Positions 28,700 to 35,135 of a stretch of DNA of 48,631 nucleotides are shown in pieces. The stretch comes from Elusimicrobiota bacterium (GTDB taxonomy: Bacteria > Elusimicrobiota > Elusimicrobia > FEN-1173): contig JAEURZ010000022.1 of NCBI GenBank assembly GCA_016788905.1, positions 1 to 48,631 of the forward strand. The letters run 5' to 3'. The first letter of the stretch is position 1. Each line of letters begins with the position of its first letter. The notes under the pieces are model-generated. The model was not told the origin of the DNA and searched no databases. It was given only the letters and a program-made list of their open reading frames with translations. Made by a program: the position numbers and the translations under genes.

Positions 28700-28912
28700 T
28701 TACTTGTAAGGAAGGATTTGTTGCCGGATTTTATTTTTGAGCGGCTCGTATTCGGGGTCTTTGTGGACCAGAATAGCCCCGAGACTCAGTGCGGTCGCGG
28801 CAATCCAGGCGTCGGCAACGGAAAGCCGGGTCGATTGCATGTCATTTTCTCCAATCACATGTAATTTTATTTTAAGAGCATGTGTCTCGTAGCGAATGCA
28901 GCTATTTGTCAA
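28700..28912 (-). pseudogene. C-terminal fragment of a VapC-type PIN-domain toxin
   Basis: The last 40 or so residues match the C-terminal half of a PIN ribonuclease: STRLSVADAWIAATALSLGAILVHKDPEYEPLKN, with the Asp of the DxWIAA motif and the later Asp of HKD. The N-terminal half with the first two acidic residues is absent and the upstream codons are not PIN-like. No VapB antitoxin gene is adjacent; the next gene upstream on the strand is the AbiEi-like gene. I read it as a dead remnant of a toxin-antitoxin locus at the left edge of the accessory island. Confidence 0.6.
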
Positions 28913-28931: not shown

Positions 28932-29546
28932 TCAGAAGCCTATTTTTTTGAGGTATTGGGTGAGCGCTGGAAAGGCGAATCGAGTGGCGTATTCCCTGAT
29001 TTTTTGGGAATCCAAATCCCATTTTTTATTGCGGGAATACGGAACGCCCAAGGGGGACCGTGGAACGAGCCCCAGGTAGGCCAGATCCAGAAAGGCTTTT
29101 TCTTTTTCGGCCATGGGGAAGGTCCCTTTGTTTGAGTGGCTTTGCTGAAAACCCCAAAACAGGCGGGCCGGGAGGTGGTGGATATGAAAATCGGCCAAAG
29201 ACGTATGGAGCCGGGCGGGGCGGCCTGTGGTGACGGCATACACCGCCCGGGGGACTTCGTCGATGGCACCCTGCCTGGAAAGCGCGGTGTAAAGAGAAAT
29301 GTAACTGGGCGAGGGAAAAGTGAGGTGTTGGACGGCTTCTGCAGGGTCCAGCGGATCGTCCAGTCGGTTGGCCCACACGCCCCTTTTGAGTTGGGTCAAC
29401 AGTTTTTTACCAGCGAGCCGTTGGAGCGCGTGGGTCGTTGCCGCAGGTTTAAGTCCCGTGAGTGTGAGAATGTCGGACGTTCTGAAAAACCGCAACCCCT
29501 GACTTTTAATAAGCCGTAAAATGTCCGTGGCTGGGAGTGTTTTCAT
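28932..29546 (-). CDS. AbiEi-type antitoxin/transcriptional regulator
   Basis: 204 residues. The N-terminal 60 residues form a winged helix (FFRTSDILTLTGLKPAATTHALQRLAGKKLLTQLKRGVW), followed by an AbiEi-like C-terminal domain with SPSYISLYTALSRQGAID and FPMAEKEKAFLDLAYLG, both typical of the family. In type IV AbiE systems this protein represses the operon and neutralises the AbiEii nucleotidyltransferase toxin. Its start overlaps the AbiEii stop by 4 nt. Here it is the second gene of the operon, whereas in typical abiE loci the antitoxin comes first. Confidence 0.82.
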   Translation of the reverse strand: MKTLPATDILRLIKSQGLRFFRTSDILTLTGLKPAATTHALQRLAGKKLLTQLKRGVWANRLDDPLDPAEAVQHLTFPSPSYISLYTALSRQGAIDEVPRAVYAVTTGRPARLHTSLADFHIHHLPARLFWGFQQSHSNKGTFPMAEKEKAFLDLAYLGLVPRSPLGVPYSRNKKWDLDSQKIREYATRFAFPALTQYLKKIGF

Positions 29547-30304
29547 AGTGACTCCGCCAGATGTCGCTCAACGGTTTCTTTCATCATCTGAAATCCCGCT
29601 GGATTGCCGTAGAGGGTTTCTAAGTCTTCTGGAAGGAACGGAAGCACTTGTTCGCGGAAATCGCCCAGAGAAAAACCGTTCGCCTTGTTCACCGCCCTCT
29701 CCCTCTCTTCCGAAGTGAGATCGTCGAATTTTTGAAACGGTGTCCTTGGAAATTGAGAATACAAGTGATGGAGGTCAAACAGGTCCCGAGCGGCAACGCG
29801 GGAAGGCGATCCTAAGGCGCGGATCTTTTGGGCGATCATTTCTTTGGGCCCATAGTGGGCGGCCACGAACGGCGGAAGGAAGGCCATTTCTAAAATTTCA
29901 GGGGTTGGGGTTGCCCGATCCGCTGCGATGTCCGGGGTGCGTCGGCTGAATTCCAGCCGGGTTGAAAGTCGGGTGCCTCCCATCACTGTCAATAGGATTT
30001 TCCATCGTTGGGTTGTCTCCGTTTGTTTAGGGGCCGAAAACTGCAGGCCGATGACGCCCTGAGGGCGAAGCCCGGCGGTAAGGGCTGGCCCCCCCAGTAT
30101 GTGGTCGACCGCATGTCGAAGTGTACGCACGGGAAGTCGCGGGGAAACGTCGATGTCCATGTCTTCCGAAAGTCGGGGCGAACGATGGAAAAAGCGAAGG
30201 CAAATTCCTCCCTTCACAGCATAGGGCCGGAGGGCCAGTCGGGAGGCCAACTGCCGCAGGGCATGCAAGTGAAACAGTTCGCGAACGCGAAAAGAAGGGT
30301 CCAT
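29543..30304 (-). CDS. AbiEii-type nucleotidyltransferase toxin
   Basis: 253 residues of the DUF1814/AbiEii family. The N-terminal nucleotidyltransferase motif is KGGICLRFF (residues 31-39) followed by RLSEDMDID, where Asp48 and Asp50 are the metal-binding pair of the GS-x-SxDxD type. Further family motifs are AHYGPKEMIAQKIRALG (Lys catalytic region) and ARDLFDLHHL. AbiEii toxins modify the 3' ends of tRNAs or similar targets. All visible catalytic residues are intact, so it is probably functional. The ATG is 6 nt after a -10 hexamer, so the transcript is probably leaderless. Confidence 0.85.
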   Translation of the reverse strand: MDPSFRVRELFHLHALRQLASRLALRPYAVKGGICLRFFHRSPRLSEDMDIDVSPRLPVRTLRHAVDHILGGPALTAGLRPQGVIGLQFSAPKQTETTQRWKILLTVMGGTRLSTRLEFSRRTPDIAADRATPTPEILEMAFLPPFVAAHYGPKEMIAQKIRALGSPSRVAARDLFDLHHLYSQFPRTPFQKFDDLTSEERERAVNKANGFSLGDFREQVLPFLPEDLETLYGNPAGFQMMKETVERHLAESL

Positions 30305-30497: not shown

Positions 30498-30526
30498 TTG
30501 ATTTATTATATATACAAACGTATAGT
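30498..30526 (+). promoter_or_regulatory. Promoter and candidate LexA operator of the PolB2 cassette
   Basis: -35 TTGATT (30498-30503), 17-nt spacer, -10 TATAGT (30521-30526), 6 nt, then ATG at 30533. A 14-bp perfect interrupted palindrome TATAC-AAAC-GTATA (30511-30524) overlaps the -10. The lexA promoter has the same arrangement (TATTC-TTTT-GTATA) at the same distance from its ATG, so I propose a shared LexA site that blocks RNA polymerase. Confidence 0.55.
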
Positions 30527-30532
30527 ATGCGA

Positions 30533-31093
30533 ATGAGCCTTTTCCTCCCCCCACCCAGTCGATTGATTTCGGAGAAGTTGGGGTGGCCTTCGGGGCGGGG
30601 GCGGTCTTTTCATGTGTTGTGCGGCCCCCGGGGGATTTCTCGGTGGACAGTGGAGGCACTCTGCCCCTTGTTGGAGGGGCCAACAAAAATTTACTGGGTC
30701 GACGCGGCGAACCGTTTTGACGCCCACGCCCTGGCCAAGACGGCTCAAGGGTATCGGATGGATCCCCGGGCGGTGTTATCCAAAATCCAATTGGCCCGGA
30801 CCTTTAACGCTTTTCAACTGGCCGCACTGGTGACCGGAAAATTGCCCCGGCTCGCTCCGGGGCCTGTGGTGTTGGCCGACCCTCTGGCGCCCTTTCTTGA
30901 TGAAGAGTTGGCGCTGGAAGATGCACAGCGTGCCTTTCAGCGGTTCTGTTTGGGATTGGCCGATGTTTCCGGTCCGGTCCTGGCTTTGGTGGTGGATCGC
31001 CCGTTGCCTCCAGGCCGCAAATGTTTTTCCCAGGGATTTTTGAAATTGGCCCAAAGTGTCACCCGGGTGGGACCTGTGGCCTTGGAAAACTAA
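30533..31093 (+). CDS. RecA-superfamily-like protein with degenerate P-loop, PolB2 cassette gene 1
   Basis: 186 residues. The RecA-like core is recognisable: a strand and loop at the P-loop position, residues 31-39 GPRGISRWT in place of GxxGxGKT; then YWVDAANRFDAHALA (54-68) as the second strand/helix; ARTFNAFQLAALV (88-100), typical of RecA/RadA paralogues; and a Walker-B-like strand PVVLADPLAPFLDEEL (111-126). The lysine and Ser/Thr of Walker A are absent, so ATP hydrolysis is unlikely. I choose ATG 30533 because it has the same spacing from the -10 as lexA; ATG 30527 is in frame 6 nt earlier. It shares one base with the next gene. By analogy to ImuA, it may tether the polymerase to RecA filaments (inference). 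Confidence 0.6.
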   Translation: MSLFLPPPSRLISEKLGWPSGRGRSFHVLCGPRGISRWTVEALCPLLEGPTKIYWVDAANRFDAHALAKTAQGYRMDPRAVLSKIQLARTFNAFQLAALVTGKLPRLAPGPVVLADPLAPFLDEELALEDAQRAFQRFCLGLADVSGPVLALVVDRPLPPGRKCFSQGFLKLAQSVTRVGPVALEN

Positions 31094-31362
31094 TGGGCCG
31101 GACGCTCCCCACCATCGTTCAAACGCTTCACCAGGAAGAAGCCCTGTGGAAAGATTTCCGCCGGGCGCTTCGCAAAGAGGATCAGGAGGTTTTAGACACG
31201 TTGTGGCGATTTGCCCGTCGGCATGCGGCACCGCTTTCCATGGCCAGCCGGCCCGTCCCTATGGAGGGAATCACCCTGGCCATGCTCCTTGGCCTTGCCG
31301 CGCGCGTTCAGGAACTGGAAAGACGTTTGGAGGTGCGGGATTCTGTCAGTGAAGGGCGTTAA
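31093..31362 (+). CDS. Small helical protein, PolB2 cassette gene 2
   Basis: 89 residues, mostly helical and charged: LHQEEALWKDFRRALRKEDQEVLDTLWRFARRHAAPL, a short linker, then a hydrophobic helix ITLAMLLGLAARVQELERRLEVR. ATG at 31093 overlaps the stop of the RecA-like gene by one base, so the two are translated together. I do not recognise a family. Its position between a RecA-like gene and a family B polymerase suggests an accessory subunit. Its last codons overlap the 3' end of the convergent MazF-like gene by 4 bp. Confidence 0.6.
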   Translation: MGRTLPTIVQTLHQEEALWKDFRRALRKEDQEVLDTLWRFARRHAAPLSMASRPVPMEGITLAMLLGLAARVQELERRLEVRDSVSEGR

Positions 31363-31706
31363 GAAAGGATTTTGTGGAGTTCGGTGGTCAAGTATCCGAG
31401 GGTTGGGTTTGAAATATGCCCCAGTTTTTTTCGGATTAAGCGTTGATCGATTGTCACGATTTTCCCAAGTTTCACGAGGGATGGTTTCGGAAGACCAGCC
31501 GACTTTTGATCCTCCTGGGACAGAAGATGATCGTAGCGAGGGACTTTTTTTGAAACTTGAGACGTTATGGCGACTAAAACCACATCTAAATGGGTTTGAT
31601 TGAATGTGTTCGACGACAGGATCAGCGCTGGGCGCATTTTTGTTGTTGTTAAATCCGTAAACGGGAAAGCAATGAGAACGACGTCGCCTCGCTTAAAGGT
31701 TGTCAT
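31359..31706 (-). CDS. MazF/PemK-type endoribonuclease toxin
   Basis: 115 residues starting MTTFKRGDVVLIAFPFTDL, the diagnostic MazF beginning, followed by MRPALILSSN and VVLVAITSQ strands and the SLVKLGKIVTIDQRLIRKKLG region. These match the sequence-specific mRNA interferase fold (SH3-like barrel); Arg in the KMRPALIL strand is the usual catalytic-site residue. The 5' end overlaps the antitoxin gene by 14 nt and the stop overlaps the convergent small cassette gene by 4 bp. It is located between two genes of the PolB2 cassette, on the opposite strand. Confidence 0.85.
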   Translation of the reverse strand: MTTFKRGDVVLIAFPFTDLTTTKMRPALILSSNTFNQTHLDVVLVAITSQVSKKVPRYDHLLSQEDQKSAGLPKPSLVKLGKIVTIDQRLIRKKLGHISNPTLGYLTTELHKILS

Positions 31707-31875
31707 ATATATCGTCTTGTGAGTTATTCCAAAAAGCAAAAGAGGTTTCCGCTACTTTGAGGCGAGCCCAATCTTCTTTGGGAAGGCGAATGAGTGCGGG
31801 TAGATCCCGGAGAAATTTTCTCTGATCTTCCGGTTTCAGGGCCCGGACACATTTTTTAAGAGTTTTGAGTGTCAT
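31693..31875 (-). CDS. Probable antitoxin of the MazF-like toxin
   Basis: 60 residues, short and charged, ending in SFAFWNNSQDDIYDNL, which is a typical intrinsically disordered toxin-binding tail. It lies directly upstream of mazF with a 14-nt overlap, the normal antitoxin position. The N-terminal half (LKTLKKCVRALKPEDQRKFLRDLP) is helical rather than a clear AbrB or RHH DNA-binding fold, so the antitoxin family is uncertain. Confidence 0.65.
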   Translation of the reverse strand: MTLKTLKKCVRALKPEDQRKFLRDLPALIRLPKEDWARLKVAETSFAFWNNSQDDIYDNL

Positions 31876-31881
31876 GGGGAT

Positions 31882-31910
31882 AGTCTACTTAGGCGGAGGG
31901 AGGAAATCAA
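31882..31910 (-). promoter_or_regulatory. Leaderless promoter of the MazEF-like pair
   Basis: Minus strand -35 TTGATT (complement of 31905-31910), 17-nt spacer, -10 TAGACT (complement of 31882-31887), 6 nt, then ATG at 31875. It faces away from the PolB2 gene. Confidence 0.5.
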
Positions 31911-31948
31911 GGGTTTTTCGACGGCGTTTTTAGTGAATGAGGGATCTT

Positions 31949-34213
31949 ATGCACTGCAACGGATGGATCTTTGACGCGTATCCTGTTTTTGAAGGAATTC
32001 GGGTGTGGGCGGTGTTGGTGGATGGGCGGCGGGTCACCTTTGTTGACCCCTGGCGGGCCCCTTTTATCGTGGACGGGGATTCTTGGGGTCGGGCTCGCCC
32101 TCTCTTGGTCTCGTCGCATACCCCCCTAGAGATCTCTCCCCGACAAGGAGCGGACCTTTATTCCGAAAAATGTCGACCGGGGTGGGAAGTTCGCGTTGCC
32201 CCGCCGGTTCATGGTCCCCTGGTCAAAAAATTAAAGCGGGCGGGGGTTCTCCTTTACAACGCGGACTTTCATCTTGTTCAACATTATCACTACGAGCGGC
32301 GTCATTTCCCCCTGGCCTTTGGCATGTTTGATTTTGACGGTGATCGATTGACCTCGTTTTCGCTCCAAGACGATCCTTGGTCTGTGGATTTTTCACTTCC
32401 CCCCCTTCGGTTCTTGCATGTGGCTCTCGCGGGGTCCGAATTTTCCGGTGCGGTGAATCCCACCCACGCGTCCCGTGGTGGACTGGTTTTACAGTATGAA
32501 GGATTGACCCATGTGTTGGAAGGGGACCCCGCTCAGCAAATGGAGAGTTTGGATCGGCGGATTCGGGAGTGGGATCCCGACGTCCTCTCGACTGACTGGG
32601 GTGACAGTTATTTGATTCCGCACCTTTTGGAGTGGTCGATCAAAACGAGACACCCCCTTTCTCTGTCCCGGGATCACGCTCGTGGGGTGAGCGGTCAACA
32701 GGGCCGGAGCTTCATGACTTACGGCCAAATGATCTATCAATCGGGTGCCCAATATCTTTTCGGTCGTTGGCATCTGGATCTGAAGAACAGTTTCTATTTT
32801 AAGGAATGTGGCTGGGAGGGCCTCTACGAAATTGCCCGCATCGCTAAGATTCCAGTTCAACGGGCGGCCCGAACGACGATCGGGACGTCCCTGTCCTCCA
32901 TGCAGTTGGACGTAGCCCTTCGTCGGGGCCTGTGGGTGCCCATGGACAAGGCCCAGGCGGAGGACTTTCGCCCGGCGTCAGAGCTGGTGGTGGCGGACAA
33001 GGGCGGTTTGGTCTACGAGCCCGATATCGGCTGGTTCGAAAACGTGGCCGAGTATGATTTCGTCTCCATGTACCCCACGCTGATGGTGAAACACAACATT
33101 TCACCCGAAACAGTGAATTGTGATTGTTGCCGAGAGGTTCTTCCTGTCCCAGAAATAGGCCACCACCTTTGCCGTCGTCGCCAAGGAATCGTTCCGGAAG
33201 TTTTAGCGCCGATCTTAAAGAAACGCGTCGAATACAAACGTCGCTATAAGGCGGGGGATCCCCAAGCCGCCGCTTTCAAGGCTCGCGCCGATGCCCACAA
33301 GTGGTCCCTAGTGACAAGCTTTGGCTATCTCGGATTCAAGAACGCGCGGTTCGGGAAGATCGAGGCGCATGAGTCGGTGACGGCTTGGGGGCGTGAGACT
33401 CTCCTGCGAGCCAAGGATTTTGTGGAAAGCCGGGGATTTCATGTTCTTCATGCAAATGTGGACTGTGTTTGGGTTCAAGGGCAGGCGGGAATGGATTACG
33501 AACATCTTCGGCGGGAGATCGAAACGGCAGGCGATTGCTCTGTGGGGTTGGAAGGCGTCTATAAGTGGCTACGGTTTTGCCCTTCCAAAACCGTTCCGCT
33601 CTCGGGCGTGCCGAACCGTTACTTCGGGGCGTTCACGAACGGAGAGCTCAAAATACGGGGGTTGGCCCTGCGCCGTCGGGACACACCGGAGATCTTTAAG
33701 AAAATGCAGAAAAATATGTTGGCGGTTTTGGCCGAGGCTGACGACGTGGCGGGATGTCGGGCTCGGGTCGGACGTGTGTCCGTGATCGCGGATACGGTTC
33801 GCGAACGGATCGCGGAAGGCCGGGTGGATGCCGTGGAGTTGGCCGTCACTTTTACGTTATCAAAGGACCCCTCGGAATACGTTTCGAATGGACCTTCCTC
33901 CGTGGCCGCGAAACGTTTGGCGGCGTCTGGAGTTCCTTTGCATGCGGGGGAAACCGTGCGCTACATCATCACTTCTTCAGGGGACAAGGTGGTTGATTTT
34001 CGTGCGACGCCCTTGGCCTTCGTGAGCGAGGCTCCAGAAGTGGACACCCAAAAATATCTAGAACTTTGGCAACGGTGTCGGGATGAAATTATGGAGGGTT
34101 TGGAAGAGGAATCTCCCGTCTTTCAGGTTCGAGAAATCCCGGCGCCATTTTCCCCTCAGCGCAGAAAAACTGAAAATGAACACCAACAGGAATTTTATTT
34201 TTTTGAAAAATAA
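31949..34213 (+). CDS. PolB2-like family B DNA polymerase, PolB2 cassette gene 3
   Basis: 754 residues. Motif A is EYDFVSMYPTL with catalytic Asp370. A CDCC...HHLC cluster follows, a possible zinc site. Motif B is KWSLVTSFGYLGFKN (Lys451). Motif C reads HANVDCVWV: the second Asp of DTD is kept (Asp505) but the first is Asn503. The exonuclease region is degraded: ExoI has lost its DxE (LHVALAG) and ExoII reads DPDVLSTDWGDSYL. These features match the PolB2/Dpo2 group, known in archaea as altered polymerases linked to damage tolerance and found in some bacteria. The C-terminus QQEFYFFEK resembles a sliding-clamp motif. AGGGA at 31940-31944 supports ATG 31949; ATG 31937 is an alternative. Confidence 0.8.
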   Translation: MHCNGWIFDAYPVFEGIRVWAVLVDGRRVTFVDPWRAPFIVDGDSWGRARPLLVSSHTPLEISPRQGADLYSEKCRPGWEVRVAPPVHGPLVKKLKRAGVLLYNADFHLVQHYHYERRHFPLAFGMFDFDGDRLTSFSLQDDPWSVDFSLPPLRFLHVALAGSEFSGAVNPTHASRGGLVLQYEGLTHVLEGDPAQQMESLDRRIREWDPDVLSTDWGDSYLIPHLLEWSIKTRHPLSLSRDHARGVSGQQGRSFMTYGQMIYQSGAQYLFGRWHLDLKNSFYFKECGWEGLYEIARIAKIPVQRAARTTIGTSLSSMQLDVALRRGLWVPMDKAQAEDFRPASELVVADKGGLVYEPDIGWFENVAEYDFVSMYPTLMVKHNISPETVNCDCCREVLPVPEIGHHLCRRRQGIVPEVLAPILKKRVEYKRRYKAGDPQAAAFKARADAHKWSLVTSFGYLGFKNARFGKIEAHESVTAWGRETLLRAKDFVESRGFHVLHANVDCVWVQGQAGMDYEHLRREIETAGDCSVGLEGVYKWLRFCPSKTVPLSGVPNRYFGAFTNGELKIRGLALRRRDTPEIFKKMQKNMLAVLAEADDVAGCRARVGRVSVIADTVRERIAEGRVDAVELAVTFTLSKDPSEYVSNGPSSVAAKRLAASGVPLHAGETVRYIITSSGDKVVDFRATPLAFVSEAPEVDTQKYLELWQRCRDEIMEGLEEESPVFQVREIPAPFSPQRRKTENEHQQEFYFFEK

Positions 34214-34232
34214 GCATATTCTTTTGTATAGT
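34203..34232 (+). promoter_or_regulatory. lexA promoter with candidate autoregulatory LexA operator
   Basis: -35 TTGAAA (34203-34208, within the last codons of the polymerase gene), 18-nt spacer, -10 TATAGT (34227-34232), 6 nt, ATG at 34239. The palindrome TATTC-TTTT-GTATA (34217-34230) overlaps the -10 and shares the TATnC-N4-GTATAGTAT core with the cassette promoter. Confidence 0.55.
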
Positions 34233-34238
34233 ATTCCT

Positions 34239-34835
34239 ATGGACCAACTCACGGCACGCCAAAAAGAAATCTATACGTTCATTGTCAATCAAATTGAGAA
34301 AAGTGGTATTCCCCCCACGGTAAGGGAGATCGCCAAACATTTTGATGTTTTTCCAAAGGCGATTCAGGATCATATTTCAGCGTTGGAACGAAAAGGTGTT
34401 TTGCGTCGGGCTAAAGAGACGGCTCGTGGTCTTTTGTTGGGGGCCAGGCGGTTGGTGGAAGCCCAGTCCCGACTCCCCATCCTGGGGCGAGTTTCCGCTG
34501 GAGTTCCCCTTGAAGCGATTGCGGAGGTGGAGGATTATTTGGCTGTGGATGAGGCCATCGCCAAACGCGCTAACTTCGTTTTGCGTGTGAAGGGCGACAG
34601 TATGAGTCCGGAACTTTTGGATGGGGATATGGTCTTGGTTCAAAATACGACTGTGGCGGAAGACCGGGCTATTGTTGTGGCCACCGTGGATGATGAAGAG
34701 GCGACGGTCAAACGATTGCGGCGCGTGAACCGGGAAATCTTTTTGGAACCGATAAATTCTGCTTATCCCCTCATTCGAGGTCGAAAAGTTTCTGTTATTG
34801 GAAAAGTGACAAGCGTCATCCGAACCTATTTTTAA
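34239..34835 (+). CDS. lexA: LexA repressor
   Basis: 198 residues, with the SOS repressor/protease plan. The N-terminal winged helix (PTVREIAKHFDVFPKAIQDHISALERKGVLRR) is followed by the autocleavage site Ala87-Gly88 in GRVSAGVP, the nucleophile Ser121 in KGDSMS, and the general base Lys158 in ATVKRL; spacing is practically that of E. coli LexA (84/85, 119, 156). The start is ATG 34239 since MDQLTARQKEIY is the canonical beginning. It lies 25 nt after the polymerase stop but has its own promoter inside the polymerase gene's end. Presumably it represses itself and the upstream cassette until RecA-stimulated cleavage. Confidence 0.95.
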   Translation: MDQLTARQKEIYTFIVNQIEKSGIPPTVREIAKHFDVFPKAIQDHISALERKGVLRRAKETARGLLLGARRLVEAQSRLPILGRVSAGVPLEAIAEVEDYLAVDEAIAKRANFVLRVKGDSMSPELLDGDMVLVQNTTVAEDRAIVVATVDDEEATVKRLRRVNREIFLEPINSAYPLIRGRKVSVIGKVTSVIRTYF

Positions 34836-35135
34836 CAGATTTGCCGCGGATTTAATCAATCCAGTTCCCCGCTGGTAACCCGAAATCCCCAGTTGAATCA
34901 CGGGATTCGACAAAAAAATCGGGCTTTTTTCCTTTCCAAAAAAGTTTGTCCGTAGTCCCCGCGACCGCGCTAGCGGAAGTGCCGCGTGGGAGCGGCCTAC
35001 GACCTGCACTTTTTTGTTCGTAAAAAAGCCCGCTTTTTTCGTCTCGCATCAGCGGCTCTGCCGCCTCAAGTGCCAGGCTCTCTGAGCCTGGCCGGTCCTC
35101 GCGCTCAACTGGGGATTCCGGGTTAACTCATCGTA
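34836..35135. other. Gene-free interval downstream of lexA
   Basis: 300 nt between lexA and the convergent Nudix gene. It is almost entirely occupied by the inverted-repeat element at 34876-35125; I see no coding potential in either strand. Confidence 0.7.
34876..35125. repeat. 250-bp highly structured inverted-repeat element
   Basis: Outer arms 34876-34896 and 35105-35125 are 21 nt with one mismatch. Nested inner arms 34909-34930 and 35022-35043 match at about 20 of 22. Two further hairpins with TCT loops sit near the right end: GCGGC-TCT-GCCGC (35052-35064) and the 9-bp stem GCCAGGCTC-TCT-GAGCCTGGC (35072-35092). There is no protein. It could be a MITE-like mobile element or a structured RNA. 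The poly-T runs after the inner arms may also act as a bidirectional terminator between lexA and the Nudix gene. Confidence 0.7.

Follow-up and report, generated by a model that had tools for sequence, protein, structure and literature searches.

Locus organization

The stretch of DNA analyzed here (the window) comprises 48,631 nucleotides of contig JAEURZ010000022.1 from an Elusimicrobiota bacterium (assembly GCA_016788905.1), whose genome amounts to 2.51 Mb and is 99.85% complete; statements about gene counts and absences in this genome refer to searches of the genome. Four intact genes lie on its forward strand: iRadA (30533-31093), encoding a 186-residue protein with a RadA/Rad51 core; PPB2 (31093-31362), encoding an 89-residue protein of the arCOG07300 type that starts with MGRTLPT; the gene for a 758-residue family-B DNA polymerase of the PolB2/G2 group (31937-34213); and lexA (34239-34835), encoding 198 residues. 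The ATG of PPB2 overlaps the stop codon of iRadA in the sequence TAATG, and lexA starts 25 nt 3' of the end of polB2. The 574-nt gap between PPB2 and polB2 holds an antisense toxin-antitoxin pair, namely a PemK/MazF-like toxin gene recognized by a family match (31359-31739, reverse strand, probable ATG at 31706) and a 60-residue antitoxin-like ORF named from its position only (31693-31875, reverse strand), whereas PPB2 and polB2 overlap or adjoin in relatives. A first-pass annotation, made from the sequence alone, had described three codirectional cassette genes. The common strand was confirmed; the three genes are not contiguous, the toxin-antitoxin pair between them having been overlooked in that annotation. 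The bacterial gene order iRadA-PPB2-PolB2 on one strand is present with other genes between PPB2 and PolB2, an interruption compatible with the published description of the system (PMC11791011).

iRadA and PPB2

The first gene had been taken to encode a RecA-like adaptor with a broken P-loop. The P-loop is indeed broken, with GPRGIS replacing GxxxxGKT, and the product is an inactive RecA-fold protein, but it is RadA/Rad51-like and not a RecA or ImuA protein. Its match to the Pfam Rad51 model falls slightly under the cut-off, and the AlphaFold2 model (pLDDT 87) has archaeal RadA as the best Foldseek match (E 8e-9), followed by matches to Rad51 and Dmc1. The protein has no N-terminal domain and consists of the RadA core only, with Walker A lost. 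The small helical protein noticed in the same annotation corresponds to PPB2, which has the N-terminus MGRTLPTIVQ in the window and is 70% identical to the PPB2 of a relative from the same family. At every locus where PPB2 was found, it opens with MGRT or with LGRT or VGRT, the latter two presumably reflecting alternative start codons.

HMMs of the bacterial loci find both proteins in haloarchaea, with E-values of 1e-12 to 1e-16 for iRadA and 1e-20 to 1e-25 for PPB2, in each case adjoining the haloarchaeal PolB2. Cassettes of these three genes are also found on four haloarchaeal megaplasmids (L116-L119), where the iRadA and PPB2 genes bear no annotation beyond that of hypothetical proteins, and on one of the plasmids (L119) the genes for an SOS response-associated peptidase (SRAP) and Cdc6 adjoin the cassette.

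The PolB2 polymerase

Translation of polB2 could start at 31937 or, equally well, at an ATG at 31949 with a Shine-Dalgarno-like AGGGA sequence. The product belongs to family B according to both Pfam and NCBIfam. Its top match is to NF004416, a model of 665 positions named 'type B DNA-directed DNA polymerase', with an E-value of 9.5e-112 and 374.5 bits, below the curated cut-off of 516. The AlphaFold2 model (pLDDT 86) has archaeal family-B polymerases as the best structural matches, and the sequence is 60% identical to PolB2 of the same-family relative. PADLOC labels the gene 'homing endonuclease', a name that we consider artefactual and attribute to a polymerase domain inside the PADLOC model.

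The altered motif C and the loss of the exonuclease, both pointed out in the first-pass annotation, were borne out. Motif C reads LHANVDCVW, with N-V-D in contrast to D-T-D of PolB3 and Pol II. When the protein is aligned to PolB3 of Pyrobaculum (5mdn), the ExoI D-x-E motif (DIE) falls on residues without acids. An xxD motif C with a preceding conserved His is common to all 50 of the PolB2 rows examined. The first motif C position is Asn in the window, where relatives have Ile, Leu, Val or Met, or Thr nearby. An orthologue of E. coli Pol II could be rejected from the low scores with Pol II models (34-62 bits against cut-offs of 570 to 1435), together with the NVD motif C and the lost exonuclease acids.

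Replacement of the first motif C Asp and of the exonuclease residues might also suit a complex that does not polymerize DNA and has a structural or regulatory task, such as the handling of stalled forks, as was first proposed for PolB2 when it was thought inactive; the early literature took the family as inactivated (PMC4104785). However, experiments on Dpo2 from Sulfolobus, which has a comparable substitution, showed that this enzyme is active as an extender polymerase and devoid of exonuclease activity (Feng et al. 2022, PMC8764526). Moreover, the motif A Asp, the second motif C Asp, the motif B Lys and the motif C His of the family are conserved in the window PolB2. We regard a role without polymerase activity as decidedly unlikely.

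A maximum-likelihood tree was calculated for 53 polymerase rows. The PolB2 side is separated from PolB3 and Pol II with a support of 100/100 in this tree, in which crenarchaeal PolB2 was left out and the outgroup branches are long. The window PolB2 is sister to that of a same-family genome (L019) within an Elusimicrobiota clade (100/100), inside a PolB2 clade that includes haloarchaeal PolB2. Its placement apart from Pol II agrees with the PolB2-like character anticipated in the first-pass annotation. Bacterial G2 polymerases were previously placed within archaeal B2 (Kazlauskas et al. 2020, PMC7544198).

Among phages, close relatives of the window polymerase were seen only in Leptospira LE1-type phages, which themselves have the whole PolB2 cassette. 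The occurrence of PolB2 in these phages and in a few viral contigs, together with the toxin-antitoxin genes and the 250-bp repeat flanking the locus, could suggest that the polymerase belongs to a phage or mobile element and plays no part in the SOS response. Yet the window PolB2 nests in chromosomal Elusimicrobiota PolB2, and the locus lies among housekeeping genes with no structural phage genes seen nearby. The tree position within Elusimicrobiota PolB2 argues against a simple phage polymerase, which we reject, and a phage or mobile origin without an SOS role is highly improbable.

Distribution of the cassette and polymerase complement

We surveyed 69 genome loci from many phyla with at least 1.1 kb of sequence upstream of PolB2. 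PPB2 is present at 68 of them, and 63 have both iRadA and PPB2 in the order iRadA-PPB2-PolB2. Among 295 Elusimicrobiota genomes, PolB2 and PPB2 were each found in 15, with 14 genomes common to both. Of the two discordant genomes, one has a PolB2 fragment on a short contig, and the other, which is fragmented, gave a partial match to PPB2. The cassette is not a chance arrangement, because iRadA, PPB2 and polB2 are found together elsewhere as well, and the co-conservation on which the first-pass reading depended was thereby found. A lexA gene lies upstream on the same strand at 10 of the 60 loci with enough sequence, and upstream on the other strand at 4 more. The downstream position of lexA in the window is unusual, since none of the 69 surveyed loci has lexA downstream of PolB2.

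Two LE1-type Leptospira phages, KF114879 (L120:4171-7439) and KF114878 (L121:3183-6259), carry a complete iRadA-PPB2-PolB2 cassette in which the partners of the polymerase are annotated as hypothetical proteins. Two IMG/VR entries (L126 and L130) are LE1-type phage cassettes as well, and a few viral contigs carry PolB2. We did not come across a PolB2 mutasome of phages in either PMC11791011 or PMC7544198.

No Y-family protein (PF00817) was found in the window genome, which has one family-C polymerase (PF07733) and no second, and PolB2 is its only family-B (PF00136) gene. Judged from this polymerase content, the main translesion enzyme of the genome is probably PolB2. PolB2 as a general replacement of Y-family polymerases in the phylum is ruled out, as 10 of the 15 PolB2-bearing Elusimicrobiota genomes also have a Y-family protein. 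Membership in an ImuA-ImuB-DnaE2 system was likewise rejected for the window locus, there being neither ImuB nor a second DnaE in the genome.

LexA and candidate operators

As the first-pass annotation had stated, lexA is intact: the Ala-Gly cleavage site and the Ser/Lys residues are retained, and the product scores 174.9 bits against the TIGR00498 cut-off of 110.95. It is the sole lexA found in the window genome. Consensus matches only gave a predicted sigma-70 promoter for iRadA-PPB2 (30498-30526, forward strand; -35 TTGATT, 17-nt spacer, -10 TATAGT) and another for lexA (34203-34232, forward strand; -35 TTGAAA, 18-nt spacer, -10 TATAGT), the latter running from the 3' terminal part of polB2 into the 25-nt gap. 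Both predicted TATAGT boxes (in the regions 30520-30533 and 34227-34239) end 6 nt before the start codon, so the iRadA and lexA mRNAs may be leaderless.

A candidate LexA operator, TATAC-AAAC-GTATAGTAT (30511-30529, forward strand; core palindrome 30511-30524), lies over the spacer and the -10 box of the predicted iRadA promoter. The candidate at lexA, TATTC-TTTT-GTATAGTAT (34217-34235, forward strand), has the same register and one mismatch to the core palindrome. Two palindromes in the cassette's own promoters are by themselves unremarkable in AT-rich sequence. The argument for an operator is a comparative one, and it rests on the corresponding site at lexA of a genome from the same family and a sister genus (G282, L111). 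The lexA promoter of that genome contains the perfect palindrome CTATAC-ATGT-GTATAGTAT, which equals the iRadA box of the window in the 14 specified bases and in register. Other Elusimicrobiota lexA promoters have diverged palindromes with a like layout.

The box core TATAC-N4-GTATA is not enriched in the 2.51-Mb genome, with 9 sites at zero or one mismatch (two of them the cassette promoters) versus 12 for the reversed control. The candidate box is absent at the recA promoter, and no SOS gene is evident beside the remaining matches genome-wide. We therefore restrict the proposed box to the two cassette promoters. LexA control of iRadA-PPB2 is likely on this comparative basis, and LexA control of polB2 via read-through is plausible because we found no terminator and no separate promoter in the gap.

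The toxin-antitoxin insertion

The PemK/MazF toxin pair is an insertion in the cassette and not a part of the mutasome; no homologue of the toxin was found in any other cassette examined. The 60-residue ORF, which has no family match, lies upstream of the toxin gene and overlaps it, and is the probable antitoxin. Neither a predicted promoter nor a candidate box was found just upstream of polB2, and, with the antisense pair in between, polB2 expression would thus depend on read-through.

Such an arrangement might indicate a decaying mutasome remnant, in which polB2 was separated from its promoter when the toxin-antitoxin pair inserted. The antisense pair in a gap where PPB2 and polB2 of relatives overlap or adjoin, and the lack of a predicted promoter upstream of polB2, are consistent with decay. 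So are the deviating motif C Asn and the C-terminal tail QQEFYFFEK of PolB2, which resembles a beta-clamp peptide but is non-canonical, whereas relatives carry xLPLxW or QLRLF. On the other hand, all three genes are full length without any stop or frameshift, PolB2 and PPB2 have the identity to the same-family relative given above, the invariant residues are kept, and the gap contains no recognizable terminator. Another Elusimicrobia genome also has about 450 nt inserted at the PPB2-PolB2 junction (L022:4543-4991), with no recognizable gene in the insertion and an intact PolB2. Decay of the system is in our view unlikely.

Proposed function and relation to known systems

Considering which genes are present and how they are arranged, their joint conservation, the placement in the tree, the folds, the loss of catalytic residues and the operator-like sites, the locus is very probably a LexA-controlled PolB2 mutasome cassette (iRadA-PPB2-PolB2) of the bacterial type. 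The first-pass reading as a B-family SOS mutasome is therefore supported in outline, and such a system has already been published (PMC4104785, PMC11791011). For the window organism, we infer SOS induction, complex formation and translesion activity as follows. Intact LexA would repress both its own gene and the iRadA-PPB2 operon, possibly including polB2, by binding TATAC-N4-GTATAGTAT over the promoters. Upon DNA damage, RecA filaments would trigger the self-cleavage of LexA, and the cassette genes would be expressed. PolB2, with no proofreading and an xxD motif C, would be held in a complex with one iRadA and a PPB2 trimer, the MGRT arm of PPB2 reaching the PolB2 active site. The C-terminal tail of PolB2 would probably tether the polymerase to the beta clamp, and PolB2 would extend primers past lesions at the cost of mutations.

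This model follows the PolB2 mutasome proposed by Timinskas et al. 2025 (PMC11791011), a computationally modelled heteropentamer PolB2:iRadA:(PPB2)3. That study also describes how the genes are ordered in bacteria, the MGRT arm of PPB2, and the clamp-binding motifs that many members have in PolB2 or iRadA. The window fits the published mutasome on almost every point compared. It shares with the bacterial systems (PMC11791011; G2 of PMC7544198) the gene order, the MGRT arm, the dead RadA core, the xxD motif C with His, the lost exonuclease and a nearby lexA, and its PolB2 tail resembles a clamp peptide without being canonical. It differs in the downstream instead of upstream lexA, the antisense MazF pair inside the cassette and the motif C Asn. 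Makarova et al. 2014 (PMC4104785) described the operon of PolB2, arCOG07300 and inactive RadA, also in bacteria and with a lexA link, for example in Leptospirillum. The L. ferriphilum locus LFML04_0990-0993 has the same PolB2, arCOG07300 homologue, inactivated RadA and lexA, but its four genes form one predicted operon, whereas in the window a separate promoter is predicted for lexA and other genes break up the cassette.

Archaeal PolB2/Dpo2 loci (Sulfolobus and the haloarchaeal megaplasmids) have the three gene families in common with the window, and Dpo2, the one member with demonstrated translesion function and cited as the sole agent of damage-induced mutagenesis (PMC8764526), provides the extender and mutagenesis model. 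The archaeal neighbours, however, are Orc1/Cdc6 and not LexA, and the window belongs to the bacterial clade. The ImuA-ImuB-DnaE2 system is similarly an error-prone, damage-linked complex with a RecA-fold protein, in many cases an inactive ATPase. It uses a family-C polymerase and a Y-family scaffold, unlike the family-B polymerase and RadA-like partner of the window, and no Y-family protein was found in the window genome. E. coli Pol II resembles the window PolB2 as a damage-induced family-B polymerase, if the window enzyme is induced as inferred, but it is a single subunit with an active exonuclease and a DTD motif C, and it is distant in the tree.

The system as such is known, and what is new here is of local scope: a candidate LexA operator, a lexA gene placed downstream of polB2, a toxin-antitoxin pair inserted in the cassette, and the set of polymerases in the genome. 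Since the genome has a single lexA and a single PolB2 cassette, and no Y-family or second family-C polymerase was recognized in it, it is a clean case in which to ask whether the archaeal-derived complex is responsible for SOS mutagenesis of a bacterium, and the locus supplies a concrete candidate LexA operator sequence. We know of no bacterial PolB2 or PolB2 mutasome with an experimental assay. It is possible, though rather doubtful, that SOS mutagenesis in this lineage is wholly family-B, with the PolB2 mutasome of archaeal derivation as its sole dedicated translesion machinery and as the main LexA target besides lexA, and that the antisense MazF couples SOS read-through to toxin expression.

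Flanking elements

The cassette is immediately preceded by a type IV toxin-antitoxin pair, AbiEi/AbiEii (28932-30304, reverse strand), and a VapC/PIN-like fragment was found at 28700-28912. Rfam gave no match between 28 and 36 kb. A 250-bp element with 21-nt terminal inverted repeats (95% complementary) follows lexA directly at 34876-35125. Some two dozen related copies or fragments of this element occur in the genome, the best being 97% identical, as in a MITE-like repeat family.
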